Assembly: GCA_947458455.1 (NCBI GenBank)
Contig: CANGYJ010000001.1
Coordinates: forward strand, 248,001 to 312,000
Length of the DNA stretch: 64,000 nt
DNA from: Verrucomicrobiaceae bacterium
GTDB taxonomy: Bacteria; Verrucomicrobiota; Verrucomicrobiia; Verrucomicrobiales; Verrucomicrobiaceae
Direction of reading: 5' to 3'
Within the stretch, counting starts at the first letter, position 1, and each line of letters opens with the position of its first letter. Under the pieces are notes generated by a model, which did no database searches, was not told the DNA's origin, and saw nothing but the letters and a program-made list of their open reading frames with translations. Positions 2,381 through 43,488 of this stretch are shown piece after piece. Position numbers and translations under genes: made by a program.

Positions 2381-4984
2381 ATGCCCAAAACCCTCATCAT
2401 CGCCGAGAAGCCCAGTGTCGCCGCCGATCTTGCCCGCGCTCTGGCCAAAGCCCCCGGCATGAAGTCCTTCACCAAGGAAAAAGACTGGTACGAGAGCGAG
2501 ACGCACGTCATCTCCAGTGCTGTCGGTCATTTGCTGGAACTTGGCATGCCGATGGTGGATGGCAAAAAGATCGGCTGGGGCTTCACCAGCCTGCCGATCC
2601 TGCCGGAAGTCTTCGAACTCAATCCCATCGAGCAAAGCGAGGACCGCTACAAGGTGCTGGCCCGCCTGCTGAAGCGCAAGGACGTGGACGCTGTGATCAA
2701 TGCCTGCGATGCCGGCCGCGAAGGGGAGCTCATCTTCCGCTACATCATGGATGCCACCGGCTGCAAAAAGCCGGTGCAGCGCCTGTGGATGCAATCCATG
2801 ACCCAAGGGGCCATCTTGGATGCCTTTAAAAAGCTGCGCAGCGATTCGGAGATGCAGCCGCTGGCTGATGCCGCCAAATGCCGCAGCGAGAGCGACTGGC
2901 TGATCGGCATCAATAGCACCCGCGCCCTCACCGCGCTGAATTCACGCCACGGTGGCTTCCGCCTCACCCCGGTGGGCCGCGTGCAGACGCCGACGCTTTC
3001 CATCCTCGCGAAACGCGAGCGCGAGATCGCCGCCTTTGTGCCGCGCACCTACTGGGAGGCCATCGCGCTCTTTGAAGTGCCCGGCGGTCGCTACCAAGGC
3101 CGCTGGATCGACGAATCGTTCAAGAAGGACGAAAACGACGAGCACAAGAAGCAGGAGCGCCTGTGGGATGAAAAGACCGCGCAGGCCATTGCTGACCGTT
3201 GCACGGGCAAACCGGGCAAAATCGAGCAGCAGACCAAACCGGCCCGCCAAGCCGCGCCGTTGCTCTATGACCTCACGAGCCTCCAGCGCGAGGCGAGCAA
3301 CCGTTTCGGCTTCTCCGCCCGCCGCACGCTGCAAATCGCGCAGGCTTTGTATGAGAAGTTCAAGGTGCTGACCTATCCGCGAACGGATTCCCGTCACCTG
3401 CCGGAGGATTACATCGGCACGGTGATCGATACGATGAAGACCTTTGCCAGCCACGACAGCCGCAAGCAGGACGCGCTGCCGCACGAGCTGGGCACGCACG
3501 CCGCCACGGTCGTCAGCAACCAGTGGGTGCGGCCGAACAAGCGCATTTTCGACAACAGCAAGGTGAGCGATCACTTTGCCATCATCCCCACCGGCCTCAT
3601 CCCGCCGAAGGAACTGCCGGAAGCCGAGCAGAAACTCTTCGACATGGTGGCGCGTCGCTTCGTGGCCGTGTTTTTCCCGGCGGCGGAGTTTGAAGTGACC
3701 ACCCGCATCACCCGTGTGGGCAGCGATGCCTTCAAGAGCGATGGCAAGGTGCTCAAATCCCCCGGTTGGCTCGGTGTTTACGGCAAAAAAGCCGCCGAAG
3801 AGACCGCCGAAAGCGGCGAAGACGCGGCAAAGCTGCTCGTGGCCGCCAACGATGGCGACCTCGCTAAGACGCTCGAAGTCGAGGTGAGCGAACTGCAAAC
3901 CAAGCCACCGCCCCGCTACACGGAAGCGACGCTGCTTTCCACCATGGAAGGCGCGGGCAAATTTGTGGAGGACGAAGAACTCGCGGAGGCGATGAGCGAA
4001 CGCGGTCTGGGCACTCCCGCCACGCGTGCGGCCATCATCGAAGGCCTCATCATGGACCGCTACATTGAGCGTGTTCAGCGTGACATGCATGTGACGCAGA
4101 AGGGTCTTGCCCTCACCGAGCAGATCGGTGAAATCGGCATTGAGGTGCTCTCTTCGCCCGAAATGACCGGCCAGTGGGAATACAAGCTGCGCCAGATGGA
4201 GCAGCGCCAGCTCGATCGAGGTGCCTTCATGAAGGACATCCGCTCGCTGACGAATCAAATCGTCGAAAAGACCCGCGCGGCATCCAAAGCGGCGAAGGAG
4301 AAGGTCTATCCCGAGTTCAAGGCTACCTGCGGCGTTTGCGGTAGCACGGAAGGCTTTAAACAGACCGAAGAATTCTACGGCTGCAAAAACCCGAAGTGCA
4401 AGGTGCGCGTGTATAAGACCGTGGCCTCCCGCCCGATGAGCGATGACGAGATTCGCACGCTGATGGAGAAACGCTTCTTGGGGCCGATGGAAGGCTTCCG
4501 CAGCAAGAAGGGCAAGGAATTCAGCGCCGGACTGGCCATCAAGGACGACATGAAGGTGGCCTTCGTCTTCGAGGGCAATGATCCCGATGCGATCAACTGG
4601 GACGAATGCCCCGTGATCACGAAATGCCCGGTCTGCGCCCTCAAAAAGCGCGAGAGTAGCATCTACGACACGCCGGATGGCTACGTCTGCAAGATCGCCG
4701 CCCTCGAAAGCGGCAAATGCAATGCCCGCCTGCCCAAAGTGCTCTGCAAAAAGGACATCACGCCGGAAAACGCCCGTGAGTTCTTCGAGAACGGCAAGAC
4801 CTCGTTGATCGTGAACATGATCAGCAAGCGCGGCCGCCCCTTCAGCTCCTTCCTCGTCTGCACCCCCGGTGAAAAACGCCTCCTCGGTTGGGAATTTCCG
4901 CCGCGTGAGCCGAAGCCCAAAGCCACGAAGAAGCCCGCTGGCGTGCGCGGCAGACAGTCGGCGAAGGTCGAGGACGGTTCTTGA
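2381..4984 (+). CDS. topB: Type IA DNA topoisomerase (topoisomerase III-like)
   Basis: An 867-residue enzyme that relaxes or decatenates single-stranded-containing DNA through a 5'-phosphotyrosine intermediate. It starts with the Toprim signature LIIAEKPSVAADLARAL, has the acidic Toprim motif ACDAGREGELIFR (residues 109-120), and carries the catalytic Tyr332 in LTYPRTDSRHLP. The strand-passage region GLGTPATRAAIIEGLI is present. After about residue 640 comes a C-terminal extension with Cys pairs (CGVCGSTEG, GCKNPKCKV, CPVCALKK). It ends in a repeat-like domain (RPFSSFLVCTPGEKRLLGWEF) typical of larger TopB forms. It is longer than E. coli TopB (653 aa) because of this tail. The call is firm. 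Confidence 0.93.
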   Translation: MPKTLIIAEKPSVAADLARALAKAPGMKSFTKEKDWYESETHVISSAVGHLLELGMPMVDGKKIGWGFTSLPILPEVFELNPIEQSEDRYKVLARLLKRKDVDAVINACDAGREGELIFRYIMDATGCKKPVQRLWMQSMTQGAILDAFKKLRSDSEMQPLADAAKCRSESDWLIGINSTRALTALNSRHGGFRLTPVGRVQTPTLSILAKREREIAAFVPRTYWEAIALFEVPGGRYQGRWIDESFKKDENDEHKKQERLWDEKTAQAIADRCTGKPGKIEQQTKPARQAAPLLYDLTSLQREASNRFGFSARRTLQIAQALYEKFKVLTYPRTDSRHLPEDYIGTVIDTMKTFASHDSRKQDALPHELGTHAATVVSNQWVRPNKRIFDNSKVSDHFAIIPTGLIPPKELPEAEQKLFDMVARRFVAVFFPAAEFEVTTRITRVGSDAFKSDGKVLKSPGWLGVYGKKAAEETAESGEDAAKLLVAANDGDLAKTLEVEVSELQTKPPPRYTEATLLSTMEGAGKFVEDEELAEAMSERGLGTPATRAAIIEGLIMDRYIERVQRDMHVTQKGLALTEQIGEIGIEVLSSPEMTGQWEYKLRQMEQRQLDRGAFMKDIRSLTNQIVEKTRAASKAAKEKVYPEFKATCGVCGSTEGFKQTEEFYGCKNPKCKVRVYKTVASRPMSDDEIRTLMEKRFLGPMEGFRSKKGKEFSAGLAIKDDMKVAFVFEGNDPDAINWDECPVITKCPVCALKKRESSIYDTPDGYVCKIAALESGKCNARLPKVLCKKDITPENAREFFENGKTSLIVNMISKRGRPFSSFLVCTPGEKRLLGWEFPPREPKPKATKKPAGVRGRQSAKVEDGS

Positions 4985-5189: not shown

Positions 5190-8100
5190 ATGAAACTGTC
5201 GCTTCTCTCACGCCTCAAAAAGGATCGCCGAGGCTTGGCCCTTATCATCGTCGTCACCTCGATTGCCCTGATTTCGGTGCTCGTCGTGGCCATCTTCTCC
5301 GTCACCCGGACCGAGTTCCGCGCCACCCAAAGCTACGTCGCCGCCAAATCGGCCAAGCAGCTTGGGGACATTTCTGTCTCCATTGTCCAAGCGCAAATCC
5401 AAAACGGACAGGCGACGACTACTCAAGGAGCTTTTCATGCAACGCAGCCTGGCATGGTGCGGGTTTACAATTCCGACGGTTCCTTCAACTCGGCCTTAAA
5501 ACTGTATTCGAGCCAACAAATGAAAGTTACTGGGGAAGAGGATAATTTACTTTCAGCAGCCAATTTGGCACCCGCGGCATGGGATACTATGCCCGCGAGA
5601 TTCGTCGATCTCAACGAACCTGTGGTCCGCCCCGGTACGGTAACGACTGCGGAGGGGCAGAGTACCGGTTATTCGATCTACTTCCCGATCATTGACCCGC
5701 GCGCCGCATTTAACTCGGGCCGAGGTGAGCAGGACGCAGGGCAGAATGGAGTTCCCGGAACAACCCAGGTCGAGGGCTTTTCATACGAAGAGAGTAGTGC
5801 TTTGCTGGGAACGGCGGGTACGAGCTATGCTAAGCAAGTTGTGACTCCTGCGGAGTCTCCTAACGATGCCAAAAAGCTGAGACTTCCGATGCCTGTGGAG
5901 TGGATGTATGTACTCGAGGACGGGTCCGTAGGTGCGCTGAATGCGGCGAACACTTTCATCAGTGCTACGGGAGGCGCTGTGCCCAGCGCCACAAACCCAA
6001 TCGTGGGCCGGATAGCGTTCTGGACGGATGATGAATCGTGTAAAATTAACATCAATACGGCGTCAGAACCGACGTTCATGTCCACCCCTTTTTACTACCA
6101 CCAACGTGATGCGAAGTGGGCTCATTTCCCAGCGACTACAGGAGAGTATCAGCGGTATCCAGGGCATCCGGCAACGACTGCGCTAAGCGCGGTGCTAGCT
6201 CCTAACTATCTGCTCGATCCTTACCTACCAGGGCGCGATGGAGGAGGCCTGTCGCAAACGCAACTGGTGCAATTGAAGCAGCAAATCTATGATTTGATCC
6301 CCAAAATTGGGCGTGGGGGGTCGGAAGGAGGTACTCGTCCGTTTGTTCAGGATGACTTCTCTTCACAGAATGGAGAAGGCGAAGCCGCTATTAGCGTTAA
6401 TTTGACTGAGTCTTCCAGAGAACGGCTATTCGCGAGTGTGGATGAAATGCTGTTCCTGCAATCAGGTTACACACCAACCAATGGCCGTGCACCCGCACGG
6501 TTTGCGATGCCCGGCGCGGCCAATCAATTTCTCTTTGACCATGACACTCTTGAGCGGTCGAGGTTTTTCCTGACTGCACACAGCCGTTCGCCTGAATTTA
6601 CCCTCCATGGCCTCCCTCGCGTCTGCATGTGGCCCATCTCGGATGAATCTCTCGGGACTCAGCGCCGAACCACCTTCGACAACATGATCGCGCTTTGTGG
6701 CACCATCAAGCGCCTGGCATCGGATGACGTCAACGGCGGAAGCCCGGATCGGACCTACTACTTCCGCCGAGCGGTTTCTTATACGGATCCAAATGACTCC
6801 CGATCAGGTGGGCAATCAGGTTCGACTTTCGACCTCACTGGAAATACTACGCTAAGCCGTAACACAGCCCTTCTGCAGTATCTATCCACGCAAATGTCCG
6901 ACTTGGAATGGCCTGCGACTGGCGCTTCGGGGGCCGGATCAGCAGGGGGATTCGATGACAAGTATGGTCAGAACAATGTGTACCAGCTTGCGGTGCAGTT
7001 TTTCGATTACATCCGCTGCACCAATCTCTATGATGGCATCCTCGCTCGCGATAATGACGCAGGGGGTAAACCGGGGGGCTACATCAGTCGTGATAACCAG
7101 CGATCAGACAATTATACTTATACTTCCCAACGTATCTCTCGGTCTCCCAATACGGTGGACAACGTCACGGCTGAGCTCGGCGCTAACAAAGCACGTGCGA
7201 ACACATCCGGGGTGCTACCTGGGCATGGCCAAGTCTCCCCGGCAATGTGGGAGCAAGGAGGGACAACCTATAAAGGATTTGGCCGGATGCTCACCATCTC
7301 GGAAATTGGGTTTCAGTTCATCTGCACGGCAGATGGAAAACCTGATGACCGCAGTCTGACCACCTTTCCGGCTCCGACACCTGCCGGGCAGGGCGGTGGT
7401 ACGGCCATTCGTTACGATCCCGAGACTGACGCCTACACCAATTCAAATGGTGTTAATATTCCCAATCCGCAGGCATACACGGGATTTGCTGTCGATGATT
7501 TGACAGGGCCGGATGGCCGCTTTTCGGTTTGGTACTCCAATTTTCCGCCTATTTCCAACCCTCCGGGTGCTGAACCCGGGACTGCCGAGAAGGCCATGAT
7601 CGATTTTTACGGGTGCGACGCTGATCAAGTTGTCTCACCAACACACCCGGCCAAACACCCAGGTTTTTCACCTGCCAACTGGAACTACTCCCTCGCGGCA
7701 AATACACCTCTCGACGTAGATGAGAAAAGGGTGCAAATGGCCTTCTTGCTGGAGACTTTTTGCCCAAGTGTGGGGTGGACCAAATTTTATCCAGAGTTCA
7801 CCATCACGATATCTGGTGGCAGCGCTGCTCAAATGAGACTGAACGGTAAAGAATTGTTCCAGACTTCCGGGGAGATTCCGATCAAATCCAATAATGGAAA
7901 TATTTACGATGATAATAGTGGTCGTGCCTCTCCCATGGGGGGCCATGTGGGGCCTACACTGCTGATGGCTGGACGCAGAACGCGCACCATATCAGGCGGC
8001 GGTGGCAACGGAGGCCCTGCGGCGGCCTACGGGGCGACCGGAGGGACTGTGCTACTGCCCTCTGACACGGATTATGGCGATGATAATGCATCAGGCCATC

Positions 8101-10358
8101 AGGCATTGAACAATTACACATTCGTAAGTGATTATGTGACGGTGAAGCGTGATGAAAAAATGGTTTTTACTTTCCCACAGGAACCGCTGGTAATCAAAAT
8201 TTACGACACGCATAGCTGGCAGAGTGCCACAGCAATTCAAGAGATTCAGATTGATTTTAACCAGTTGAGTCTCCCCACCACTCTGCCCGTGCCACACCTC
8301 GTCGGCTCCACAAATCCGATTGATGGTTATCAACCAGATCCAACAGATCCAACAAAGTACCATGGGGGACCGCGTGTTAACACTGACAACGGGGTCATGA
8401 ACGGTCAGTATTTCAGTACTCTGGACGGCAATGGACGGAACCAGCATCGCCGCTCTCTGCAAGGGCCTCATTACTGGGGGTATTTATTTGATGGAGTGAT
8501 TGGGCGTGGCCGAGGCACCTTCAATGCTGGCTACTCCAAAACGAATGGTGAACCCCCTTGGAGCCTACAGCCCGAAGTGATCGCAAGTGGTGGAGATTCC
8601 GTGAGTCAACTCAAGCGCGGACGTCTCGATACCACGTCGGGTATCGTGGATCGACCATTACCCCCCGGAGACTACTACGCTGGAGTGGGCATTATTCCAG
8701 ACGCCACGAGTGATGTGATTCGCACCATCGTTCCTGCCGTGGGAGATTATCGAATCCTCGCAGCACGCCGTTTTGTGCCCACGGAAATGTGGACGCCGCA
8801 TCCTCTCTGGCAGAATGGACCGGAATTTGATCAAATACGCCAAGCCCATAGTTTCAGCGGCTACCAGGCGAACAATGAGCCGGGGGCTTCCTTTTCGATC
8901 CGGACCAACGACCCTTCTGCGGTGATTGAAAACTATGTGGGCAACTACTCAGCTCTTTATCGCCAAGACTTGCAGTTGGTGGGTGGCGCTGGGTATCAGA
9001 TGATTAACGACACCAATTTCAGAGAAGACCTCAATAATATGAGGGGTCGTCATCCTGACCTCCCCCCCCATGAGGACTGGGCGAAAGCTGCCAACGCTTT
9101 CGGTGATTTTGACACCGGCCTCTCTGGTGGTCGTGAAGGCCCCTACATTAACAAACCTGATGAAGGTAACTTCTTCGCGAACACCGAGATTCGCAATGGT
9201 GTGTCCCACTTTGAGCGTCAGGCCTATTTCCGGGAGTCCTGGGAAGATGCGGAGGATTGGCGCAGCGGCATTTACATGACGCCAAATCGCCTCATTGCCT
9301 CGCCAGTGATGTTTGGTTCCCTGCCGACGGGCGTCTGGCAAACTCCCGGTGGTTTGCCTTCCGCGCGGGATATGACAAATCTTGGCTCGCTGGAATACGC
9401 ACCGTGGCAAACTCTGCTCTTCCGCCCTCACTCGCAGGTCACCAGCCAGCAGCCAAACTCTCACTCGAGCCACCCAGGTGCTTATGATCCGGCGGATCAT
9501 TACCTGCTGGACCTTTTCTTCATGCCTGTGGTGGAGCCGTATGCGATCAGCGAGCCTCTCTCCATGGCCGGGCGTGTGAATATGAACTATCAGATGATGC
9601 CTTTCCCTCACATTCGCCGTGCCACCGGGCTACATGCCGTCATGAAGGGAGAATACGTCACCGCCATTCCTGCTAATGAGATTAACCGTGCCAAGGGGTA
9701 TCGTGCTCGAAATGGAGGAACAGCTTGGGACGATACCTTCTGGGACGACAGCACTGATGCCAAATACTGGCACCGCCCGATCGATGTTCGTGCCACTCTG
9801 CGTCAGTTTGACAATCGCTTCAGGCACACTGCCGGGATCGCTACCAATGCGATGGGGCTTTTCCGCTCTGCCACACAAATCTGTGAGACGCATTTGGTGC
9901 CTGTTGACGCTGCGGGCTCTGGCACGGTGGATGCGAATGCTCAATCCCTTAGAAACGCCAATTCCCAAGCCGATTTTGATTCGGCTATGAATGATTTCTG
10001 GTCTCATAATCGAGTCACCGGAGACAACGTCAGAGAGCGTGTTTACTCGAATATTTATGCTCGCCTCACCACCCGGACGAATACGTTCCGCATCCATATG
10101 CGCACTCAAACTTTAAAGAAGGCACGTTCTACAAGCCCTGCGACGTTTGATCCGGTAAAAGATGCTGTTACCAGCGAGTATCGTGGGTCAGCCTTACTTG
10201 AGCGTTACATCGACCCGAATGACGGTAGTGGCGGGACAGGAGGTGGTGCGGTCATTCCTGACTATGCGGACTCTACAGGGCCATTCGCAGGCGGACGCCC
10301 ACCACTAGACGCCTTTTACCGTTTTCGTATGATCGAATCGAAACGGTTCGCTCCATAA
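5190..10358 (+). CDS. Verru_Chthon cassette protein A
   Basis: A very large (1722 aa) envelope-associated protein, first gene of a four-gene cassette described in TIGRFAMs as Verru_Chthon A-B-C-D and of unknown function. The N-terminus is a type IV pilin/PilX-like membrane anchor: KKDRRGLALIIVVTSIALIS, then a long amphipathic helix. Near residue 285 is the string KININTASEPTF, which resembles the conserved NINTAS motif of the minor pseudopilin GspK. The body is rich in Gly, Asn, Asp and aromatic residues and reads like a secreted or surface beta-rich protein. Gene B follows after 24 bp. Base composition is less GC-biased than the flanking housekeeping genes. Inference: the membrane-proximal tip of a dedicated pseudopilus. 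Confidence 0.88.
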   Translation: MKLSLLSRLKKDRRGLALIIVVTSIALISVLVVAIFSVTRTEFRATQSYVAAKSAKQLGDISVSIVQAQIQNGQATTTQGAFHATQPGMVRVYNSDGSFNSALKLYSSQQMKVTGEEDNLLSAANLAPAAWDTMPARFVDLNEPVVRPGTVTTAEGQSTGYSIYFPIIDPRAAFNSGRGEQDAGQNGVPGTTQVEGFSYEESSALLGTAGTSYAKQVVTPAESPNDAKKLRLPMPVEWMYVLEDGSVGALNAANTFISATGGAVPSATNPIVGRIAFWTDDESCKININTASEPTFMSTPFYYHQRDAKWAHFPATTGEYQRYPGHPATTALSAVLAPNYLLDPYLPGRDGGGLSQTQLVQLKQQIYDLIPKIGRGGSEGGTRPFVQDDFSSQNGEGEAAISVNLTESSRERLFASVDEMLFLQSGYTPTNGRAPARFAMPGAANQFLFDHDTLERSRFFLTAHSRSPEFTLHGLPRVCMWPISDESLGTQRRTTFDNMIALCGTIKRLASDDVNGGSPDRTYYFRRAVSYTDPNDSRSGGQSGSTFDLTGNTTLSRNTALLQYLSTQMSDLEWPATGASGAGSAGGFDDKYGQNNVYQLAVQFFDYIRCTNLYDGILARDNDAGGKPGGYISRDNQRSDNYTYTSQRISRSPNTVDNVTAELGANKARANTSGVLPGHGQVSPAMWEQGGTTYKGFGRMLTISEIGFQFICTADGKPDDRSLTTFPAPTPAGQGGGTAIRYDPETDAYTNSNGVNIPNPQAYTGFAVDDLTGPDGRFSVWYSNFPPISNPPGAEPGTAEKAMIDFYGCDADQVVSPTHPAKHPGFSPANWNYSLAANTPLDVDEKRVQMAFLLETFCPSVGWTKFYPEFTITISGGSAAQMRLNGKELFQTSGEIPIKSNNGNIYDDNSGRASPMGGHVGPTLLMAGRRTRTISGGGGNGGPAAAYGATGGTVLLPSDTDYGDDNASGHQALNNYTFVSDYVTVKRDEKMVFTFPQEPLVIKIYDTHSWQSATAIQEIQIDFNQLSLPTTLPVPHLVGSTNPIDGYQPDPTDPTKYHGGPRVNTDNGVMNGQYFSTLDGNGRNQHRRSLQGPHYWGYLFDGVIGRGRGTFNAGYSKTNGEPPWSLQPEVIASGGDSVSQLKRGRLDTTSGIVDRPLPPGDYYAGVGIIPDATSDVIRTIVPAVGDYRILAARRFVPTEMWTPHPLWQNGPEFDQIRQAHSFSGYQANNEPGASFSIRTNDPSAVIENYVGNYSALYRQDLQLVGGAGYQMINDTNFREDLNNMRGRHPDLPPHEDWAKAANAFGDFDTGLSGGREGPYINKPDEGNFFANTEIRNGVSHFERQAYFRESWEDAEDWRSGIYMTPNRLIASPVMFGSLPTGVWQTPGGLPSARDMTNLGSLEYAPWQTLLFRPHSQVTSQQPNSHSSHPGAYDPADHYLLDLFFMPVVEPYAISEPLSMAGRVNMNYQMMPFPHIRRATGLHAVMKGEYVTAIPANEINRAKGYRARNGGTAWDDTFWDDSTDAKYWHRPIDVRATLRQFDNRFRHTAGIATNAMGLFRSATQICETHLVPVDAAGSGTVDANAQSLRNANSQADFDSAMNDFWSHNRVTGDNVRERVYSNIYARLTTRTNTFRIHMRTQTLKKARSTSPATFDPVKDAVTSEYRGSALLERYIDPNDGSGGTGGGAVIPDYADSTGPFAGGRPPLDAFYRFRMIESKRFAP

Positions 10359-10382
10359 TCTCAAACTCTAGCCTTTACTAAA

Positions 10383-10910
10383 ATGGTTCACCTCATCCGC
10401 CTTACAAATCGTTCAAGGGCTGCCGGTTTTTCACTTGTGGAGGTTGCTCTCGCAGTCGCAATTGCATCCCTGGGTATCATTACTTGCCTTGGGCTGCTTC
10501 CCGAAGGCATCGAAATGTCACGCAAAACAGGGCTTCTGGCCATCAATAGCAATGTGCTCGACCAGATCATCCGTGATGTCGAGAATGCGCGGGATTGGAA
10601 AGCCATAAAAGCTAATTATGTGGCCCACCCGGGATTCCCTTCCGGCGGAACTGTCGCAGCGCCGGAGGACCGGACAAAGTATTATGACTATCAGGGCACA
10701 GCCGTCACGGCAAGCTCGCCAAATATTGCCTTCGTGGCGCAAATTCAGTACAACCTACCCTGTCTGCTTCCAGGAGAGACGACTGACCAGAGGTACTTAG
10801 CTAGGCTGAGGATCAATATCGCTAATACTTCGAATCCAGCCTTTAATTTTCCAGTGCCGGCCAATGGTCTTTACACGACGTTTTATCATCTTGTTAGCAA
10901 GTCCAGCTAG
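10383..10910 (+). CDS. Verru_Chthon cassette protein B (prepilin-like)
   Basis: A 175-residue type IV pilin-like protein. The prepilin processing site is AAG|FSLVEVALAVAIASLG: Gly at -1, Phe at +1 and Glu at +5. A 20-residue hydrophobic helix follows, then a globular domain of about 130 residues. It sits 24 bp after gene A and about 10 bp before gene C, clearly one operon. Its +5 Glu would allow assembly into a fibre as a major or minor pseudopilin. No prepilin peptidase or assembly ATPase is encoded in the window, so processing must rely on genes elsewhere. The family placement follows from cassette order; the function is unknown. Confidence 0.87.
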   Translation: MVHLIRLTNRSRAAGFSLVEVALAVAIASLGIITCLGLLPEGIEMSRKTGLLAINSNVLDQIIRDVENARDWKAIKANYVAHPGFPSGGTVAAPEDRTKYYDYQGTAVTASSPNIAFVAQIQYNLPCLLPGETTDQRYLARLRINIANTSNPAFNFPVPANGLYTTFYHLVSKSS

Positions 10911-10919
10911 GTTTTTGTC

Positions 10920-12146
10920 ATGAATTCGCATCTTCAGAAAATCACATCCTCAGAACGGAATCGCTTAGGACGAGGGGCTTTTACCCTGGTTGAACTCATG
11001 GTGTCGGTTTCCATTTTGGTGATTCTCATGCTGGTAGTCTCCAGTTTTGTGAATCTCGTCCAACGAACTTGGGTGAGAACCAATTCGAACATTTCCCAGT
11101 TTCGCGAAGCTCGCCTAGCGTTTGACGCCATGACTCGCACCATCAGTCAGAGCACGCTCAACACTTACTGGCAGTCCGCACAGTCTATTTCGAGACAGCA
11201 GGGTAATAATATGGGAACAATCTTGAAAGGAACCTCATATCGTAGGCAATCTGAGCTACAGTTTAGCTGCGGTCCTACAGTCGGGGGTGCTACAGCGTTA
11301 TTCTCTACGGGCACAGCTGCCAATTATCCAGGTCATGGAGTATTTTTTCAGGCACCCCTTGGCGTGACTGGCCTCATCAGCCCCGCAGCCGGTGGCTCTG
11401 CTGTTATTGCTGACACACAAAACATGGTCAACCTTCTCTGTGGAAGAGGGTTTTTTGTCGCTTGGGGGGATGATGCCAGTTTCCGCCCCCAGTTTCTCAA
11501 CACTCGGAATGTGCCCAAACGCACTCGTTTTCGCCTAATGGAGTTCAGCCCCACCGCTGAAAAGAATCCAATTTACAGTGATGACTATCGCCTGACCTAT
11601 TCTGAGGATGGCCGCACGGTCGAAAACTCAAGGCTCTGGTTTCGAAATGCTACTGACAGCTCAGGCGGCACTTCGGCCGCCATTCAGCAGAACACGACAT
11701 CCCAAAACGAGGATGCTTCGAATCGCGAGTTCACTCGCCCAATTGCTGAGAATATTTTGGCGTTGGTCATTTCCCCACGGCTTGCAAAAGTGGGGCGGAA
11801 CGAGACTCAAACCTATAAAATCGCTCCTGATTATAGCTTTGATTCATCTTCTCTAGGAGCTGTGGGAGCCGGTGATGATGACTTTGGCCCTCAAGGAACC
11901 CAACACCTGCTGCCACCGCTTTTGCAGGTCACGATGGTCGCTTTGGATTCGCGAGGAGGGGAGCGCATTTCATTCGATGCCCAGCTTCAATCTCAGGTGG
12001 TACAAATGGTGACGAGCCGATTCAGCAGTGCTGCCCGCTACGCGGCAGATCTTCAGGCACTAGAAAGCGACCTTATTCAGAAACGTCTCGCATACAGGGT
12101 TTTCACCAGTTCGATTTCTCTTCGCCAGTCCCGCTGGAGCAAGTGA
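10920..12146 (+). CDS. Verru_Chthon cassette protein C (prepilin-like)
   Basis: A 408-residue prepilin-like protein, third gene of the cassette. A basic leader (to GRGA) is followed by FTLVELMVSVSILVILMLVV, with Glu at +5. The residue before the predicted cut is Ala, not the usual Gly. The large C-terminal domain (about 360 residues) is rich in Ser, Thr and Asn. The size and the FREARLAFDAMTRTISQ helix after the membrane segment recall the large minor pseudopilin GspJ/PilW (compare QFREAR..FD.M.R.I), which would match a tip-complex role. The ATG at 10920 is 10 bp after gene B. The function is unknown. Confidence 0.87.
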   Translation: MNSHLQKITSSERNRLGRGAFTLVELMVSVSILVILMLVVSSFVNLVQRTWVRTNSNISQFREARLAFDAMTRTISQSTLNTYWQSAQSISRQQGNNMGTILKGTSYRRQSELQFSCGPTVGGATALFSTGTAANYPGHGVFFQAPLGVTGLISPAAGGSAVIADTQNMVNLLCGRGFFVAWGDDASFRPQFLNTRNVPKRTRFRLMEFSPTAEKNPIYSDDYRLTYSEDGRTVENSRLWFRNATDSSGGTSAAIQQNTTSQNEDASNREFTRPIAENILALVISPRLAKVGRNETQTYKIAPDYSFDSSSLGAVGAGDDDFGPQGTQHLLPPLLQVTMVALDSRGGERISFDAQLQSQVVQMVTSRFSSAARYAADLQALESDLIQKRLAYRVFTSSISLRQSRWSK

Positions 12147-12185
12147 TGCCCAGCTCTTCAACGAATACGCTCAACTCTTTGTGCC

Positions 12186-12893
12186 ATGAAACTCTTTCGC
12201 GCATGCCGACAATCCTCCAAGGCTGCATTTACCCTTATCGAAACCTTGGTCGTCGTCTCGATCATCGTGCTTATTCTCGCCATGACAGGTCCATCCTTGC
12301 TTGGGACCATGCAGGCCAGTCGTTTATCTTCGGCTGGAGATACGGTAGTAGGCCTGCTAGCTGAGGCACAGCAAACTGCCATGGCACAAAATGTGCCTGT
12401 TGAAGTGCGCTTCTTTAAATATCAGACGCCCACAACCACCTACGAGAGCTATCACTCGTTGCAGGCGTTTAAAGTAACAAATGATCCGACGGTTGCCGTC
12501 GGGGAGGTTAAGGAGCTTCTAGTGCCAATTGGTACACTTACGCGCCTGCCTGATTCTGTTATCATCCCCTACGAGAAGATGCTGGCTCCTCTGCTAGACG
12601 CCAAAGGATTTGCAGACACTAAGCCAGACGGCACAAGCACTTACTCAGGTGTTCAAGCCGCTACTTACAACGCCATTCGATTTATGACTGACGGCACTTG
12701 CCGCAAGCTCTCAGATAATCCCACCACCGGGGTGGCCGCTATGACGTATCCCACTCTGCGCACCTCCTGCATCACGCTGAGCCCTGAGATTGGCCAGCAG
12801 GTCAATGAAACCAATCTGCCAAAAAACTTTTATTGTATCCAGGTTGACCCATATACGGGCAAGATTCGTACGTACCGGCCTGGAGAGTATTGA
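12186..12893 (+). CDS. Verru_Chthon cassette protein D (prepilin-like)
   Basis: A 235-residue prepilin-like protein, last gene of the cassette. The leader MKLFRACRQSSKAA ends at Ala before FTLIETLVVVSIIVLILAMT, with Glu at +5. The helix continues into SSAGDTVVGLLAEAQQTAMA, which resembles the GspH/FimT minor pseudopilin pattern in which the helix ends in an A-x-x-AR-Q-x-A-x-type segment. The C-terminal domain is small and beta-rich by appearance. It begins 39 bp after gene C. The end (12893) lies 49 bp before guaB, so read-through into guaB is possible. The specific role is unknown. Confidence 0.87.
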   Translation: MKLFRACRQSSKAAFTLIETLVVVSIIVLILAMTGPSLLGTMQASRLSSAGDTVVGLLAEAQQTAMAQNVPVEVRFFKYQTPTTTYESYHSLQAFKVTNDPTVAVGEVKELLVPIGTLTRLPDSVIIPYEKMLAPLLDAKGFADTKPDGTSTYSGVQAATYNAIRFMTDGTCRKLSDNPTTGVAAMTYPTLRTSCITLSPEIGQQVNETNLPKNFYCIQVDPYTGKIRTYRPGEY

Positions 12894-12942: not shown

Positions 12943-14397
12943 ATGGGTGAACCTCCTTCTATTGCTTTAAGTTTCGACGACGTCCTCCTCCTTCCGGCGC
13001 ATAGCGCTGTTTTACCTGGAGAAGTCAATGTGGGTACAAAACTGGCTTCTATTGGCCTCAATGTGCCGGTGCTTTCCTCGGCCATGGATACCGTCACGGA
13101 GTCCGAGTTAGCTATTGCGCTGGCTCGCGAGGGGGGGCTGGGAGTCGTTCATCGCAACATGCCGATTGACCTTCAAGTGGAGCAGGTGGCTAGGGTGAAG
13201 CGAAGTGAGAACACGGTGATTCAAAGCCCTCTCACGGTTAGCCCGGATGCTCGTTTGGGTGAGCTGCACAGGCTGATGGCAGAGAAGGGGGTTAGCGGGT
13301 TCCCAGTGGTGGACAAAGATGGGAAACTCGTCGGTATGGTGACGAGCCGGGACATGTGGTACATAGATGACGAGAGCACTCCCGTTTCTGCGGTGATGAC
13401 TCCCGGCACACGTCTCGCCACAGGAACTCCGCAGACTAGTTTTGAGGATGCGCTGAAGATCATCTACACGCATCGCATTGAAAAACTGCCTTTAGTTGAC
13501 TCTTCCGGTAGGCTGGCTGGTCTGATCACGAAACAGGACATCATCAAGCGTCAGACTTTCAAAAATGCCGCCAAGGACGGCAATGGGCAGCTTCGGGTCG
13601 GGGCGGCCGTGGGCGTGGGCGATGATTGTGTGGATCGCGGCCGTGCGGTGCTCGCTGCGGGCGCAGATGCCGTGTTCATTGATGCTGCCACGGGGCATAC
13701 GAGTCGTGTCATGCAGGTCATCGCTCGTCTTCGAGAGGCTCTGGGTGATATTCCCATTGTTGCTGGGAATGTGGTGACGGCTGATGGTGCCCATGATCTG
13801 ATTAAAGCAGGTGTTTCCGCTGTCAAAGTGGGCGTAGGACCAGGGTCGATCTGCACGACTCGCATCATTTCAGGCGTTGGTATGGCGCAGTTTACCGCCG
13901 TTCAGGAAGTGGCTGAGGTTTGTCGTCCGGCAGGTGTCTGCGTCATTGCTGATGGCGGGATTCGTTACTCAGGAGACATCGTCAAGGCTCTCGCAGGTGG
14001 CGCGGATGCGGTCATGCTGGGCTCGTTACTTGCCGGCACCAGCGAAAGTCCTGGCAATATGGTGAAATCACAGGGGCGCACCTTCAAAGAGTATCGTGGT
14101 ATGGGTAGCCTGAAAGCGATGCGAAAAGGGTCTGGGGATCGCTACGGCCAAAATAGCTCAGGCAAGCTGGTTCCGGAAGGTGTCGAAGCTCGCGTGCCAT
14201 ATAAAGGGCCGCTGGCTGATGTGGTCTTCCAATTGATCGGTGGGCTTCGCAGCGGCATGGGCTATGTGGGGGCAAATAACCTCGATGAGCTTCGTGCAAA
14301 GGCACGTTTCGTTCGAATCACGGCCGGTGGCTTGAAAGAAAGTCATCCACATGATGTCGTTATCACCGAGGAGCCGGTGAATTATGAGCCGCATTGA
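12943..14397 (+). CDS. guaB: IMP dehydrogenase
   Basis: A 484-residue enzyme that oxidises IMP to XMP with NAD+, the committed step of GTP synthesis. The N-terminus has the signature [11 protein letters not shown] and [10 protein letters not shown]. The catalytic loop [13 protein letters not shown] places the nucleophile at Cys304. Two CBS domains (about residues 90-205) lie between the barrel halves ([21 protein letters not shown] and [19 protein letters not shown]). The mobile-flap region ends in [22 protein letters not shown] with the catalytic Arg-Tyr context. Length is normal for bacterial IMPDH. It follows the cassette at a 49-bp distance but is an ordinary housekeeping gene. Confidence 0.97.
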
Positions 14398-19396: not shown

Positions 19397-19583
19397 TTCG
19401 TTCTAGAACCTTTGACCACGGAATAAACGGTAGTCTCTGAGTTTAGACTTGTTTCCTTAGTGAGTTCCCGCAGCCTGACGGCCTGACGATATGAAAACGC
19501 CCCCCAAGGTTTTACATCTCACTGTTCATCACTCATGGCTCACTTTGCATGGAGGGGGAGTTTTGGGACGGTTGTTCTCGAGC

Positions 19584-22500
19584 ATGAAATGCCTGACCGG
19601 TATCATCACCGCCTCCGTTGTATTCGGCTCTGCTTCTTGGTGTCACGCAGCCGCGCCCGCAGGTGCCGATAAAGCCTTTTCGAAACGCTCCAGCAGTACC
19701 ATCACACTGACTCCGGCTGACTGGGGCTTTTCAGACTCGGACACACCGCCCGATATCTTCTCGGCGGTCAAAATCGCCACGCTGCCATCCACAGGCATCC
19801 TAAAGGTAGACGGTGTGAATGCGACGGCTGGGCAGATCGTTTCCATTTTGCCGAGTGTTCCGGCAGGTGAAACCTGGAACACGCTAGCGGCAGCTGGCAG
19901 CGGCATCTGGAGGTGCATTACATGCTCCGCAGATGGTACCAAACTCGCAGCCGCCAGGCAGGGGGATATCTATGTTTCAAACGATTCTGGGGCGAGCTGG
20001 ACACCCAGGTCTACTTTCGAATACTGGACTTCCATAGCGTCCTCAGCCGATGGGAGCAAACTCGCTGCCGTTGCAGGCATCAATGGTCTGATTTACATCT
20101 CATCTGACTATGGCGTGACGTGGACGTATCATGAATGGTACCGCAATTGGCAAGCCATCACTTCTTCTGCTGACGGCAGTAAGCTCGCTGCGGTGGATTT
20201 GGGTGGAAAAATCTACACATCGACCGATTCGGGGGAGAATTGGACGCCGCGAGAATCGAATCGTAATTGGAAATCAATCGTGTCTTCGTCTGATGGGACC
20301 AAGCTCGCTGCTGTCGTTTACGGCGGTCAAATCTACACTTCTAATGACTCAGGCGTAAGCTGGACTGCACGCGCATCGGACAAATCATGGTATTCAATCA
20401 CATCATCTGCAGATGGCAGTAAATTGGCTGCCGTGGTCATTGGTGGCCAAATCTACACTTCCATCGACTCAGGCATAAGCTGGACTGCACATGGATCAGA
20501 CAAATCATGGTATTCAATCACCTCATCTGCAGATGGCAGTAAGTTGGCAGCCGTTGAAAGTAGTGGGTATATCCACACCTCCACAGACTCGGGGATGAGT
20601 TGGACTATTCGGGATTACAACAGTTTCTGGCGAGGCATCACATCCTCAGCTGATGGCAGTCGGCTTTTTGCGGTGGCTGATTACGATGGCCTTATTCTCT
20701 CCTCAGCCGGTGCAGTGCCAGCTATCACCTACACCACCCCGGCAGGCACAGGCAGTGCCAGCTTCACCTTTCAGGTTCAAGACTCGTCCGCAACGAACAA
20801 TCTAGACCTCAGCGCAAACACACTGAGCTTTGACTATGTCACGCCCCCACCTCCCAAGCCACCAGAAGGCGAGGACAAATCCTTTTCCATGCTCGCCACC
20901 ACTACGGTCACGTTGGCTGAGACGGACTGGGGCTTTTCAGACTCGGACAACCCGGCGGATCGGTTTTCGGCCGTCAAGATTAACACCTTGCCTACAGTGG
21001 GGACTTTGAAGGTGGATGGTTTGAACGCCACGGCTGGCCAAAGCTTCAGCATTCAACCAAGCGGTACTCCTGGTGAGATATGGACAGCCCAATCGGCCTC
21101 TGGTAGTCGCAACTGGGGCCAAATCTCATCTTCTGCCGATGGTATTCAACTTATCGCAATTGGAGAGAATCAAATTTACATCTCAACTGACTCTGGCGTG
21201 ACCTGGACGCCTCGTGAGATTCCCCGTAACTGGAGGTCCGTCACGTCTTCTTCCGATGGCAGCAAACTCGCTGCTGCCGTCTACGATGGGCAAATTTACA
21301 CCTCGACCAATTCGGGGGTGAGCTGGGTGCCTCGGGATTCAAATCGTAAGTGGAATTCCATTACGTCTTCCGCAGATGGCAGTAAGCTCGCAGCGGTGGA
21401 CCAAATCGGCTACATCTACACTTCTGTCGATTCGGGAGTGAGCTGGACACCTCGACTATCAGCATCTCAAGCTAGCAGCCAATGGGGGTCCATAACATCC
21501 TCTGCTGATGGTGCCAAGCTCGCCGCTGCGACTGAATACGGCCCCATTTACACTTCGAGTGACTCAGGACAGACCTGGACAGTGCGAACCACGAAGCGCA
21601 ATTGGTCTGCCATTAGCAGCTCTGCTGACGGTAATATGCTAGCTGCAGTGGTTCGTGGCGGACAAATCTATACGTCCAACGACTCTGGACTTAGCTGGGT
21701 AGCTAGAGAATCAGCCCGCCTTTGGACATCTATCGCGTCCTCTGCGGATGGTAGCAGGCTCGCTTCAGTAGTCGATGGTGGTCAAATCTACATTTCCACC
21801 GATGCGGGCTTGAACTGGACGGCTAGGGAGGCTGATCGCTACTGGAGTAGCATCACTTGCTCCGCCGATGGCAATAAGTTCGTAGCGGGGGGATTATACG
21901 AGCACATATCCACCTCTGCAATCGCTGCCCCCACCATTACCTACACCGCGCCTGCTGGCATGGGCAGCGCCAGCTTCACCTTCCAAGTGCAGGACTCCGC
22001 CGCGACGGATAATCTCGACCTCAGCTCGAACACACTGAGCTTTAACTATTCCACCGCCTATCCGACGGTCACACTACCCGCCACGCCATCCGGCGGCTGG
22101 CCGATCAATCCTCTGACGGGGCTCTATGACATCGACGTGCCAGTGCAAAACACGACGGCTAATGTCATCAATGGCTTTCGTATCATAGTGGGTCTCACTG
22201 CTTATTCTAGCAGCCATCCCAGTCTCGTGCTCAGTAATGCCAGCAACATCGCGTTTTCCTACATCGACCATACCTGCCCACTCGCTGTTGGAGAAAGTGT
22301 CACACAGAGGCTGAGCTTTGGCCTGACTTCAAGCGGATTGCCAAATCCCTTCAATCCCATGTTGGTTGCCTTAACTTGGACGCCACCTGCCATGGGGGGG
22401 GCTTTGCCGAGTGGTCTGAGCTTCAGCAATGCAGGCATCCAGTCGAACAACGGCGGACCCTTTCAACTTAGTTGGCCCAGCACCGTGGGGCGCTGGTATC

Positions 22501-22661
22501 GCATCTACTACACACAGAACCTGAGCACTTGGTTCTCTGCCAGCACACCGATCCAAGCCACCACCACCCAAACGCAATGGAGCGACACTGGCCCGCCCCA
22601 CACCTCCGCAACTCCAGGCACGGCTCGCTTCTACAAAGTCAGCGAGATTGCGTCGCCGTGA
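19584..22661 (+). CDS. Secreted protein with two seven-repeat beta-propellers nested in cadherin-like domains
   Basis: I chose the ATG at 19584 because it begins a normal signal peptide (MKCLTGIITASVVFGSASWC, then HAA). The in-frame ATG at 19491 would add 31 residues before it. The mature protein has two homologous halves. Each opens with a cadherin-like segment (DWGFSDSD..FSAVKI..LP..G.LKVDG.NATAGQ). It continues with seven 40-residue blades of the pattern W.SITSSADGSKLAAV..GGQIYTS.DSG.SWT, and closes with ITYT.PAG.GSASFTFQVQDS. The C-terminal 75 residues match a domain common at the ends of verrucomicrobial secreted proteins (WPSTVGRWYRIYYTQNLSTW...ARFYKV). Likely extracellular; ligand unknown. 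Confidence 0.85.
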   Translation: MKCLTGIITASVVFGSASWCHAAAPAGADKAFSKRSSSTITLTPADWGFSDSDTPPDIFSAVKIATLPSTGILKVDGVNATAGQIVSILPSVPAGETWNTLAAAGSGIWRCITCSADGTKLAAARQGDIYVSNDSGASWTPRSTFEYWTSIASSADGSKLAAVAGINGLIYISSDYGVTWTYHEWYRNWQAITSSADGSKLAAVDLGGKIYTSTDSGENWTPRESNRNWKSIVSSSDGTKLAAVVYGGQIYTSNDSGVSWTARASDKSWYSITSSADGSKLAAVVIGGQIYTSIDSGISWTAHGSDKSWYSITSSADGSKLAAVESSGYIHTSTDSGMSWTIRDYNSFWRGITSSADGSRLFAVADYDGLILSSAGAVPAITYTTPAGTGSASFTFQVQDSSATNNLDLSANTLSFDYVTPPPPKPPEGEDKSFSMLATTTVTLAETDWGFSDSDNPADRFSAVKINTLPTVGTLKVDGLNATAGQSFSIQPSGTPGEIWTAQSASGSRNWGQISSSADGIQLIAIGENQIYISTDSGVTWTPREIPRNWRSVTSSSDGSKLAAAVYDGQIYTSTNSGVSWVPRDSNRKWNSITSSADGSKLAAVDQIGYIYTSVDSGVSWTPRLSASQASSQWGSITSSADGAKLAAATEYGPIYTSSDSGQTWTVRTTKRNWSAISSSADGNMLAAVVRGGQIYTSNDSGLSWVARESARLWTSIASSADGSRLASVVDGGQIYISTDAGLNWTAREADRYWSSITCSADGNKFVAGGLYEHISTSAIAAPTITYTAPAGMGSASFTFQVQDSAATDNLDLSSNTLSFNYSTAYPTVTLPATPSGGWPINPLTGLYDIDVPVQNTTANVINGFRIIVGLTAYSSSHPSLVLSNASNIAFSYIDHTCPLAVGESVTQRLSFGLTSSGLPNPFNPMLVALTWTPPAMGGALPSGLSFSNAGIQSNNGGPFQLSWPSTVGRWYRIYYTQNLSTWFSASTPIQATTTQTQWSDTGPPHTSATPGTARFYKVSEIASP

Positions 22662-25409: not shown

Positions 25410-26507
25410 GTGAAGCCCAAACGCTCCAGTTCAACCAAAGCCATCCAGCCCGCTCAGCGGAGCTTCGAGGACTTGGTGCGTGAACTGAAGACGTTCATCA
25501 CCGAAAGCCGACGGCAGATCATTCGTGCGGTGGATTTTGCTCAGGTGCAGACCTGTTGGGGCGTGGGGCGTTATATCGTGGAATACGAGCAAAAGGGGGC
25601 AGATAGAGCTAAGTATGGAGCCAAATTACTTCCCAAACTTTCAGAACGGCTCACCACCGATTTTGGACAGGGCTTTGATGAGCGAAACCTCCGAAACATG
25701 AGGCTGTTTTATCGCACTTTTCCAATTTGGAACGCACTGCGTCCCGAATTGAACTGGACCCAATACCGCACCCTTCTCCGAGTAGAAGACCCCAAAGCCC
25801 GCGAGTGGTATATCGAGGAGGCCATCACCCAAAACTGGAGTTCTCGTGCCCTTGATCGCCAGATCAACCGCCTCTACTACGAGCGGCTGCTTTCCAGCCG
25901 AGACAAAAAGGCGGTGAAGAAGGAAGCGGAGGAGAAAATAGCCGAGTTACCGCCATCGCCGAAGGACTTCATTCGCGATCCGGTGCTGCTAGAGTTTTTG
26001 GGGCTGCCGGAAACCGGACGGCTGCTGGAGTCGAACCTCGAACAACGGCTCATCGATCACTTGCAGAGTTTCCTGCTCGAGCTTGGCAAAGGCTTTGCGT
26101 TTATCGGTCGCCAGGTGCGGGTGAGTGCGGAGACGAAGGACTTCTATATCGATCTCGTCTTCTACAATTACCTCTTGAAATGCTTCGTGATCTTCGATTT
26201 GAAGCCCCGCGAGCTGCGGCACGAGGACATCGGCCAGATGGACATGTATGTGCGCATGTATGACGACTTGCATCGCGGCAAAGGAGACAACCCTACCGTC
26301 GGCATCATCCTCTGCGCTGCGAAAGACGCCTCCATCGCCAAGTATTCGATCCTCAACGGCAGTGAGAAGCTTTTCGCTTCTCGCTACACGCTTGTGCTGC
26401 CCAGCGAAGAGGTGCTGCGCCTCGAATTGATCCGCGAGCAGCAGATGCTGGAAGGCTTCAAGCCAGTTCGAGCCGCCAAAAAGCCGAAGCGCCAAATTTC
26501 TCGATAA
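25410..26507 (+). CDS. DUF1016 / YhcG-type PD-(D/E)XK nuclease domain protein
   Basis: A 365-residue protein with a GTG start 6 bp after gyrB. The N-terminal DUF1016_N region contains SRRQIIRAVDFAQVQTCWGV, VGRYIVEYEQ, LSERLTTDFGQGFDERNLRN and the helical LRVEDPKAREWYIEEA. The C-terminal nuclease fold shows AETKDFYIDLVFYNYLLKC then VIFDLKPREL, the D...D-x-K version of the PD-(D/E)XK active site where many relatives have E-L-K. Family members are usually scattered with mobile or restriction-modification loci, and their biochemical role is not settled. Here the gene splits the gyrase pair. Composition is somewhat lower in GC than gyrB. The domain call is firm; any link to gyrase is inference. 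Confidence 0.9.
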   Translation: MKPKRSSSTKAIQPAQRSFEDLVRELKTFITESRRQIIRAVDFAQVQTCWGVGRYIVEYEQKGADRAKYGAKLLPKLSERLTTDFGQGFDERNLRNMRLFYRTFPIWNALRPELNWTQYRTLLRVEDPKAREWYIEEAITQNWSSRALDRQINRLYYERLLSSRDKKAVKKEAEEKIAELPPSPKDFIRDPVLLEFLGLPETGRLLESNLEQRLIDHLQSFLLELGKGFAFIGRQVRVSAETKDFYIDLVFYNYLLKCFVIFDLKPRELRHEDIGQMDMYVRMYDDLHRGKGDNPTVGIILCAAKDASIAKYSILNGSEKLFASRYTLVLPSEEVLRLELIREQQMLEGFKPVRAAKKPKRQISR

Positions 26508-29250: not shown

Positions 29251-31362
29251 ATGCGCCCGTTCGTCCTTCTCACCATGACTGTCACCGCCCTTGCTGCCGA
29301 CTCGTTGACCTATCCGACCACCCGCAAGGAGGAGGTCGTGGACACGCTGCACGGGGTGAAGATCGCCGATCCCTACCGCTGGCTGGAAGATGACAACTCG
29401 GAGAAGACCAAAAAATGGGTGAAGGCTCAAAACGAGGTCACGTTCGGCTATCTGGAGAAGCTGCCGCGTCGTGCGGAGATCCAATCGAGGCTCAAGGAGT
29501 TGTGGAATTACGAACGGGTGGGCATGCCCTTCGAACGCGGAGGGCGGTGGTTTTATTCGCACAACAGCGGGTTGCAGAACCAGCCTGTTTTGATGACGGC
29601 GGAGTCTCTGGAGGCGAAAGCGACGCTGCTGCTCGATCCGAATGCGATGTCGAAAGATGGCACCACCTCACTCAGCGACTACGAAGCCAGTGAGGATGGC
29701 AAACTCATCGCGTATGGCGTCTCGGAGGCGGGGAGCGATTGGAACACGATTCGCCTGCGTGACATCGCCAGTGGCAAGGATCTCGAGGATGTGATCCGCT
29801 GGGTGAAGTTCAGCGGCATTTCATGGCTCAAAGATGGCAGCGGCTTCTTTTATGCCCGTTACGATGAACCGAAGGCTGGAGCGGCTTTGACGGCCAAAAA
29901 CGAGTTTCATAAGCTCTACTTCCACAAGCTCGGCACGAGCCAGAAAGAGGATGTCTTGGTCTATGAACGCCAGGACGAGCCGAATTGGGGCTTTGGCGGT
30001 CATGTGACTGAGGATGGTCAATATCTCATCATTCCCGTGTGGCTCGGCACGGAGCCGAAGAACCGTCTCTTCTACAAAAAGATCGCTCCTGACGCCCCGG
30101 TGGTGGAACTGCTGAATGACTACGATGCCCGCTACGACTTCATCGACAACGTCGGTCCGATTTTTTACTTCCACACGGACCTGAATGCCACCTGCTACCA
30201 GGTCATTGCCATCGACATCCGCAAGCCGCAGCGTGGCAACTGGCGCGTGATCGTGCCCGAAGTGCCGAAGGTGCTGCTGGAAAACGTGAGCACTGTCGGC
30301 GGCAAGATGCTCTGCCAGTATCTCCGCGATGCGAAGACCGAGGTGAAGTGCTTCGACATGGATGGAAAGCTCATCCGCGAGGTGAAGCTGCCCGGCATCG
30401 GCTCGGCGGGTGGTTTTGGCGGTCATCGCACGGACAAGAGCACGTTTTACACCTTCACCAGCTTCACCGAGCCGGGAGCGATCTACCGCATGGACCTCGA
30501 AAGCGGTGAGAGCACGCTTTGGAGGAAACCGGAGGTGAAATTCGATGGAGCAGCCTTTGAGACGAAGCAGGTTTTTGTGACCAGCAAGGATGGCACGAAG
30601 GTGCCGATGTTCATCGTTCACAAGAAGGGGCTGAAGCTCGACGGCTCGAATCCTACGCTGCTGTATGGCTACGGTGGATTCAGCATCAGCCTCACGCCTT
30701 CGTTTTCCGTCTCACGAGCCGTGTGGCTGGAGATGGGCGGTGTCTTTGCCATGCCCAATCTGCGCGGCGGCGGCGAATACGGCCGCGACTGGCATCTCGC
30801 TGGGGTGAAGCTGGGTAAGCAAAACGTCTTCGATGACTTCATCGCCTCCGCCGAGTGGCTCATCGCGAACAAATACACCAGCAGCGCCAAGCTCGCGATC
30901 CAGGGCGGTAGCAATGGCGGACTGCTCGTGGGTGCCTGCATGACGCAGCGGCCTGAGCTCTATGCCGCCGCCTTGCCTGCGGTGGGCGTGCTCGACATGC
31001 TGCGCTTTGAGAAATTCACCATCGGCTGGGGCTGGCGCAGCGATTACGGCAGCGTGGAAAACGGCGCGGAGTTCAAGGCCCTCCTCAGCTACTCGCCCTA
31101 TCACAACCTGAAGCCAGGCACCCGCTATCCGGCCACCCTCGTGCTCACCGGCGATCACGACGACCGTGTGGTGCCTGCTCACAGCTTCAAATTCGGTTCC
31201 CGTCTTCAGGAAAGCCAGGCCAAGGACGGTCCGCCGGTGCTCATCCGCATCGAAACCAGCGCCGGTCATGGTGCTGGCACCGCCTTAAACAAGATGATCG
31301 AGAAGACCGCCGATGAGTGGGCCTTCCTCGTGAAGCATCTGGGCGTCGAAGCTACGCGATGA
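29251..31362 (+). CDS. Prolyl oligopeptidase (family S9A), probably exported
   Basis: A 703-residue serine peptidase that would cleave short peptides after proline. A short signal-like N-terminus ([16 protein letters not shown]) precedes [27 protein letters not shown], the S9A N-terminal signature. A seven-bladed propeller region spans about residues 75-420. The hydrolase domain has Ser554 in [12 protein letters not shown], the Asp in [16 protein letters not shown] and His673 in SAGHGAG. Length is typical of bacterial POPs. Its 3' end overlaps the convergent DUF1501 gene by 11 bp. Periplasmic location is inferred from the leader. Confidence 0.93.
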
Positions 31363-43410: not shown

Positions 43411-43488
43411 GCGCCCATGTTGGCGGCGGTTCGCGAAAAGAGAAATTGGAAATTTGACGGCGGAGGCGCATGGCGGGAGCTTTTCCGC

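Follow-up and report, generated by a model that had tools for sequence, protein, structure and literature searches.

A Verru_Chthon A-B-C-D cassette as a candidate minor-pseudopilin tip for the export of giant PEP-CTERM proteins in Verrucomicrobiaceae

A 64,000-nt stretch of the genome of a Verrucomicrobiaceae bacterium (GenBank assembly GCA_947458455.1, contig CANGYJ010000001.1, positions 248,001 to 312,000; hereafter the window) contains four adjacent genes, A to D, that belong to the Verru_Chthon protein families. Our analysis suggests, with a probability of about 0.45, that this cassette encodes a dedicated minor-pseudopilin tip that works on a shared type II secretion engine and exports a giant PEP-CTERM protein. 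Fold models give good support to a resemblance of A, C, and D to GspK, GspJ, and GspH of the type II secretion system (T2SS), respectively, and A is genetically linked to giant PEP-CTERM proteins in part of the relatives.

The cassette and the folds of its proteins

All four genes lie on the plus strand in the order A-B-C-D, and an NCBIfam scan placed each product above the curated cut-off of its family, as expected from the earlier note on this DNA, which had recognized the cassette from the sequence. A (positions 5190-10358, 1722 residues) scored 1131.1 bits against TIGR02600 (cut-off, 332.3; profile positions 1-1296 of 1296), B (10383-10910, 175 residues) 66.4 bits against TIGR02598 (cut-off, 51.4), C (10920-12146, 408 residues) 344.2 bits against TIGR02599 (cut-off, 256.5), and D (12186-12893, 235 residues) 99.4 bits against TIGR02596 (cut-off, 70). 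The prepilin-type N-termini that had been noticed earlier were read by eye in all four proteins (A, RRG/LALIIVV; B, AAG/FSLVE; C, RGA/FTLVE; D, KAA/FTLIE; the slash marks the predicted cleavage site). For A, analogy with GspK predicts a leader of 15 residues (5190-5234, plus strand) with cleavage after G15. The glutamate at position 5 (Glu5) was present in B, C, and D and absent only in A. The short prepilin model TIGR02532 (cut-off, 16.3) scored C (18.7) and D (17.3) above and B (15.0) below its threshold, with A not listed, and the Pfam model N_methyl was over its cut-off for C (23.4 vs. 21.2), just under it for B and D, and without a match for A; Pfam otherwise added nothing notable. The NINTAS-like motif reported previously in A corresponds to KININTAS at residues 285-292 (6042-6065, plus strand), of which K285, N287, N289, T290, and A291 were invariant in all eight A proteins aligned.

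We modelled A through the mature part of a homologue from locus L107 (1195 residues, 36% identical to the window A), using a 45-sequence alignment. The model had a mean predicted local distance difference test (pLDDT) score of 81.8 and a predicted template modelling (pTM) score of 0.85. Re-alignment against 998 chains with VIA-align 2 gave GspK chain 3ci0_K at Z 9.3 (3.3 Å, 260 of 280 GspK residues), and the next chain reached Z 3.8. Chain 3ci0_K is GspK from the GspK-GspI-GspJ complex of enterotoxigenic E. coli; because it aligned nearly whole between model residues 29 and 1195, the model describes a GspK interrupted by insertions. In model terms, A therefore seems to be a GspK enlarged by insertions, and the window A carries 12 further insertions of 17-58 residues each relative to the L107 protein. 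The other chains in this re-alignment (C2, FN3-like, and others; Z 3.8 or less) were not taken as domains of A. By sequence, the N-terminal profile of A matched no PDB entry.

B, C, and D share one reading frame and were folded together, with window positions 10383-12890 read through two internal stops as glycine and an alignment of 27 similar stretches from relatives, each spanning two or three genes. An initial chain alignment (A5) of homologues of the three proteins was not used; its B rows had 10-18% identity to the chain and were apparently misplaced. The joined model had a mean pLDDT of 69.5 and a pTM of 0.62, with a helix of about 50 residues near the start of each part. The C part matched chains in GspJ-bearing entries (3cfi_H, Z 10.3; 9a1f_S, Z 10.3; 5vtm_W, Z 10.1), and the D part matched FimU (4ipu_C, Z 11.3) and EpsH, which is GspH (2qv8_B, Z 10.8), with GspH and FimU not distinguishable from each other. 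C is thus modelled as J-like and D as H- or FimU-like, in line with the GspJ/PilW-like and GspH/FimT-like starts that had been noticed in them from the sequence. For B, the family scan gave a weak PilV match (E 0.031); we infer that B is I-like by elimination, because A, C, and D are taken as K, J, and H, and from its PilV/GspI-type start.

The cassette was followed through relatives of A by fetching 80 named contigs, the best 80 of 274 passing candidates. Of the named loci, 75 had an A frame of 900 residues or more, and 37 of these contained all four genes in the order A-B-C-D, so the clustering is beyond chance. The other arrangements were A alone (16 loci), B-C-A-D (8), A-C-D (5), B-C-D-A (3), and B-A-C-D, A-B-C, and D-B-C-A (2 each), the incomplete sets being due in part to contig ends and the gene finder. 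The window genome gave one match to TIGR02600 and one to A3, a shorter profile of the A N-terminus (all 16 candidates scored), and thus appears to hold a single A. A3 matched 63 of 68 genomes of the family, and some relatives (G083, G234, G351, and G353) had 21-33 A genes per genome, compared with the one in the window genome. Across the phylum, TIGR02600 matched 156 of 288 genomes, 8 of them over the cut-off (at most 2 candidates scored per genome), and A3 matched 221 of 288 (at most 8 scored per genome). Beyond families f1 and f12, the listed matches covered roughly the N-terminal helix region only and may represent any K-type prepilin. A KININTA-type block was found in none of ten short loci checked by motif, some of the frames inspected there not being the matching ones. 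Long frames (about 700-1500 residues) whose resemblance to A is confined to the N-terminal helix region were present in many Verrucomicrobiota genomes (e.g., L022, L024, L025, L027, and L028) and are possible further oversized K-type prepilins.

Giant PEP-CTERM proteins and the cassette

Among the 65 named loci with at least 1 kb of upstream sequence, 25 had a large Gly/Asn/Ser/Thr-rich gene directly upstream of the cassette on the same strand. This gene extended past the fetched stretch in 24 of the 25 and had a PEP-CTERM end by motif in 20. At L050, L065, L066, and L079, the large repeat-like gene upstream of A ended in a different C-terminal sequence without PEP-CTERM, and perhaps represents a second class of partner.

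A further profile (A2), covering the C-terminal 230 residues of giants in 18 rows taken mainly from giants next to an A, matched all 68 family genomes searched. When the 67 best listed A2 places were compared with the 95 best listed A3 places, the A2 match ended within 2.5 kb upstream of a same-strand A in 37 of the 67, including 22 of the 24 that scored best. Seventeen of these 67 places were in frames of more than 8000 residues; 16 of the frames were linked to A, and the remaining one was the giant of the window genome itself. The 16 linked giants were 8,915 to 14,256 residues long, and their profile matches lay 123-301 bases from those of A.

As a less biased sample, we read upstream of the 19 listed A genes of G353 (of 33 A matches). 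A PEP-CTERM protein was adjacent to 9 of the 19, six of them on the same strand (five by motif and L176 by eye) and three divergent; the binomial tail of this count was 1e-7 at an assumed background of 5% per neighbour and 4e-5 at 10%. The numbers of A and A2 matches were also correlated across the 68 genomes (Spearman 0.55; partial rank r 0.42 after allowing for genome size, with 0 of 10,000 permutations), as computed with no kinship correction and with at most 46 A2 candidates scored. A correlation between A and giant distances (20 pairs, Mantel r 0.87, 0 of 5000 permutations) was set aside as evidence because common descent alone gives it. For part of the relatives, these data support a genetic link between A and the giants. 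Such linkage may be a specialization of this family, or cassettes with no giant neighbour may serve unlinked cargo.

The window genome encodes its giant as a single frame of 12,432 residues on another contig, C13 (approximately 57,136-94,362; pieces in L137 and L136). Its start resembles a signal peptide by eye, and Pfam identified a PA14 domain in the first 1000 residues and a passenger-associated repeat (PATR) in the C-terminal piece. The protein ends in PEP-CTERM (TIGR02595 at C13:94276-94347, 31.5 bits, cut-off 16), as does a 4,638-residue frame on contig C8, and 19 PEP-CTERM matches with E of 0.1 or less were found in the genome. The same two frames held 19 and 12, respectively, of the 38 listed matches to TIGR02601 (autotransporter-associated beta strand repeat). 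The C-terminus of the C13 giant was 55% identical to that of the giant at L054, the locus whose A is also closest to the window A.

A DUF7133/HEAT-type gene of 1132-1245 residues preceded the giant in all 13 relatives with sequence there (a fourteenth stretch ended inside the giant and is outside this count), and these genes were 81-94% identical to the gene before the C13 giant. The relatives thus have the arrangement DUF7133-giant-A. In the window genome, this is split into DUF7133-giant (C13) and topoisomerase III-A-B-C-D (C1), which points to a break between the giant and A. The topoisomerase III gene (2381-4984, plus strand; PRK08173 above its cut-off) occupies the place upstream of A that the giant gene holds in relatives, and it was found beside A in none of 19 other loci within the fetched 1.5 kb (three partial genes). 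Mis-assembly could possibly account for the separation, although the two contigs, at 667 and 118 kb, are both long. In several relatives (G011:C75, G008:C30, G001:C33, G012:C39, and G002:C136), topoisomerase III lies about 6 kb or less from a same-strand match to a GspE-type ATPase, unlike in the window genome, where the GspE-type ATPase is on C13. The rearrangement may also have involved the T2SS locus.

Proposed mechanism and competing explanations

No other pilus or secretion gene was recognized by eye among the open reading frames of the window (at least 100 residues in positions 1-22000 and at least 330 residues in 22000-64000), as had been stated before; since the family scan covered eleven window genes, a short gene of this kind could be missed. 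Elsewhere in the genome, we found 12 T2SSE-domain matches, a run of ordinary-size GspK-, GspJ-, GspH-, GspF-, and GspE-like genes on C13 (locus L011), and a GspE-GspF pair on contig C9 (L014). The Gsp-like genes of these two loci all scored below the equivalog cut-offs, by little for GspE (565 vs. 630 bits) and by much for GspK (45 vs. 130 bits). A PilT-type gene in L012 exceeded its cut-off. The genome also contained one prepilin peptidase frame, eight secretin matches (seven frames, five contigs), and two exosortase matches (PF09721). With engine-, peptidase-, and exosortase-like genes present, the idea that the cassette is a set without possible partners was rejected; it would be an additional K-I-J-H set beside that on C13. 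The C13 giant lies about 8 kb from the GspE-F-H-J-K-like run, on the opposite strand.

The earlier note had proposed that the four proteins form the tip of a dedicated pseudopilus or exporter of one giant protein. The tip and the giant cargo have gained from the K, J, and H folds and from the giant link in relatives, but a complete pseudopilus of its own is not supported: beside the cassette, we saw none of the genes for a major pilin, an ATPase, a platform protein, or a secretin, which makes a shared engine encoded elsewhere likelier. In the mechanism that we propose, the cassette would form a tip complex with A as K (an oversized cap), B as I, C as J, and D as H. PMC6211770 describes the minor-pseudopilin tip of the T2SS as critical for substrate recognition and binding. 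A prepilin peptidase encoded elsewhere would trim the leaders of A to D, the four N-terminal helices would come together in the inner membrane, and a short pseudopilus would be primed by the tip and built by the shared engine (GspE, GspF, major pseudopilin, and secretin, all encoded elsewhere). That A is linked to giant exported proteins suggests a receptor role for the enlarged K, with one giant as its partner; the inserted regions of A would bind a single cargo, a giant exported PEP-CTERM repeat protein, here the 12,432-residue frame. Before engagement, the giant would be kept in the inner membrane by its PEP-CTERM anchor; the growing pseudopilus would push it via the secretin to the surface. 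Exosortases generally serve to release PEP-CTERM anchors, and an exosortase would here remove the anchor and free the giant.

A wider version of this mechanism, which we consider possible but doubtful, is that one type II engine accepts exchangeable tips, each cassette being a cargo-specific cap whose oversized GspK is the receptor for its own giant. If so, genomes with about 30 cassettes would choose among cargoes of up to about 14,000 residues by switching tips, and pseudopilus export and exosortase sorting would operate on one molecule.

Several results weigh against a dedicated tip with a giant cargo. On the structural side, Foldseek alone ranked GspK fourth for the A model (E 0.78), not separated from noise, so that the case for GspK rests on the VIA re-alignment and its margin. 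The GspK fold, including its inserted domain, was matched on the L107 homologue and not on the window's own A chain; the sole fold match of the B part was weak (FimA, 3sok_A, Z 4.7); and all models are of single chains, with B-C-D as one joined chain. The GspK, GspJ, and GspH equivalog models gave A, C, and D only 21.2 (cut-off, 130), 21.1 (64.85), and 20.9 bits (80), respectively. These scores identify the three as distant relatives and not as standard proteins, and the cassette is not classed as a standard T2SS member, only as one that may work like one. On the genomic side, 40 of the 65 named loci, like the window, have no large gene of this kind upstream of A, C13 already supplies an ordinary-size T2SS-like H-J-K set, many PEP-CTERM proteins are located away from cassettes, and 30 of the 67 best listed A2 places were unlinked to A. 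At least eight further listed frames of more than 8000 residues had no listed A on their contig, and the A2 ranking, in which 22 of the top 24 places were linked, leans to linked giants owing to the make-up of the profile.

Part of this evidence would be explained if the cassette capped an extended type IV pilus with A as its tip adhesin, the giant being an independent surface protein tied to it only by co-regulation, and both serving attachment. D resembles FimU as closely as GspH, PilT-type ATPase genes are present in the genome, and A is large and variable like tip adhesins. However, GspK was the sole good match of the A model, and giants are linked to A in part of the relatives, neither of which favours a pilus cap. 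GspK carries an inserted domain that is absent from PilX, and the minor pilin sets of type IV pili have a small PilX in the place of GspK, unlike the large A. We regard a pilus cap as unlikely. The cassette might instead provide general type II secretion with another tip that has no single cargo, adjacency to giants in Verrucomicrobiaceae reflecting shared regulation or late specialization. This would account for the 40 of 65 named loci with no large upstream gene, for the 10 of 19 examined G353 cassettes with no PEP-CTERM neighbour, and for the window genome, where giant and cassette are apart. Such a tip seems unlikely in view of the gaps of 123-301 bases separating the profile matches of giant and A in 16 genomes, and of the division of large upstream genes into a class with and a class without PEP-CTERM. 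It is very improbable that A to D stay outside any pseudopilus as prepilin-like membrane proteins, for example as envelope-bound structural proteins; the lack of recognized major pilin and engine genes beside the cassette would fit, but the Glu5 pattern is that of I, J, and H with and K without the residue, and both the K, J, and H folds and the prepilin peptidase of the genome argue against it.

The gaps between A and B, B and C, and C and D are 24, 9, and 39 bases, and a gene for IMP dehydrogenase (12943-14397, plus strand; TIGR01302 above its cut-off) begins 49 bases past D. From these short distances, the cassette and the IMP dehydrogenase gene are likely to be on one transcript. Elsewhere in the window, a gene at 19491-22661 (plus strand) encodes a 1056-residue protein with Sortilin/BNR-type repeats that is likely exported, and a DUF1016_N/YhcG_C (PDDEXK) nuclease gene at 25410-26507 (plus strand) lies between gyrB- and gyrA-like frames (gyrase identified by eye). 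Two adjacent DUF1501 genes on the minus strand (31352-32878 and 32758-34170), which overlap as listed, are an apparent tandem duplication, and one minus-strand frame at 42031-43503 fuses cytidylyltransferase-like (NadD-type) and NAD kinase domains.

Relation to known systems

A search of mainly open-access literature found no publication for the cassette name or the four TIGR numbers. In the abstracts and passages that this search covered, we did not meet the GspK identity of A or its link to giant PEP-CTERM proteins; the four families were already named, and what appears to be new is this identity together with the giant link. A named cassette with no published function in the literature searched thus gains a testable one, a pseudopilus tip by fold with a candidate cargo from its neighbourhood. 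If the proposal is true, it would account for the exit of some very large surface proteins from bacterial cells, make GspK the evolvable, cargo-selecting component of type II secretion, and join pseudopili and PEP-CTERM sorting, which have so far been studied apart.

The cassette consists of the same four families in the same order as Verru_Chthon proteins A to D. Those family names carry no function, whereas here A, C, and D gain a structural identity and the giants are added as linked genes. With the GspK-GspI-GspJ-GspH tip of the T2SS, the cassette shares the K, J, and H folds, the Glu5 pattern, and the adjacency of four genes; it differs in the size of A (1722 residues, against 280 in 3ci0_K), in having no engine genes beside it, and in its scores below the equivalog cut-offs. 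Compared with the FimU-PilV-PilW-PilX set of type IVa pili, D resembles FimU and B matches PilV weakly, but A resembles GspK at a length far from that of a small PilX-type cap.

The giants end in PEP-CTERM, and the window genome contains both PEP-CTERM and exosortase matches, as expected of the PEP-CTERM/exosortase system. The available part of PMC1569441 counts 65 PEP-CTERM proteins in Verrucomicrobium spinosum and ties the system to exopolysaccharide genes; pilin-like signals appear in that part as other examples of sorting signals and not as partners, whereas the cassette would place a pseudopilus tip and a PEP-CTERM protein in one export route.

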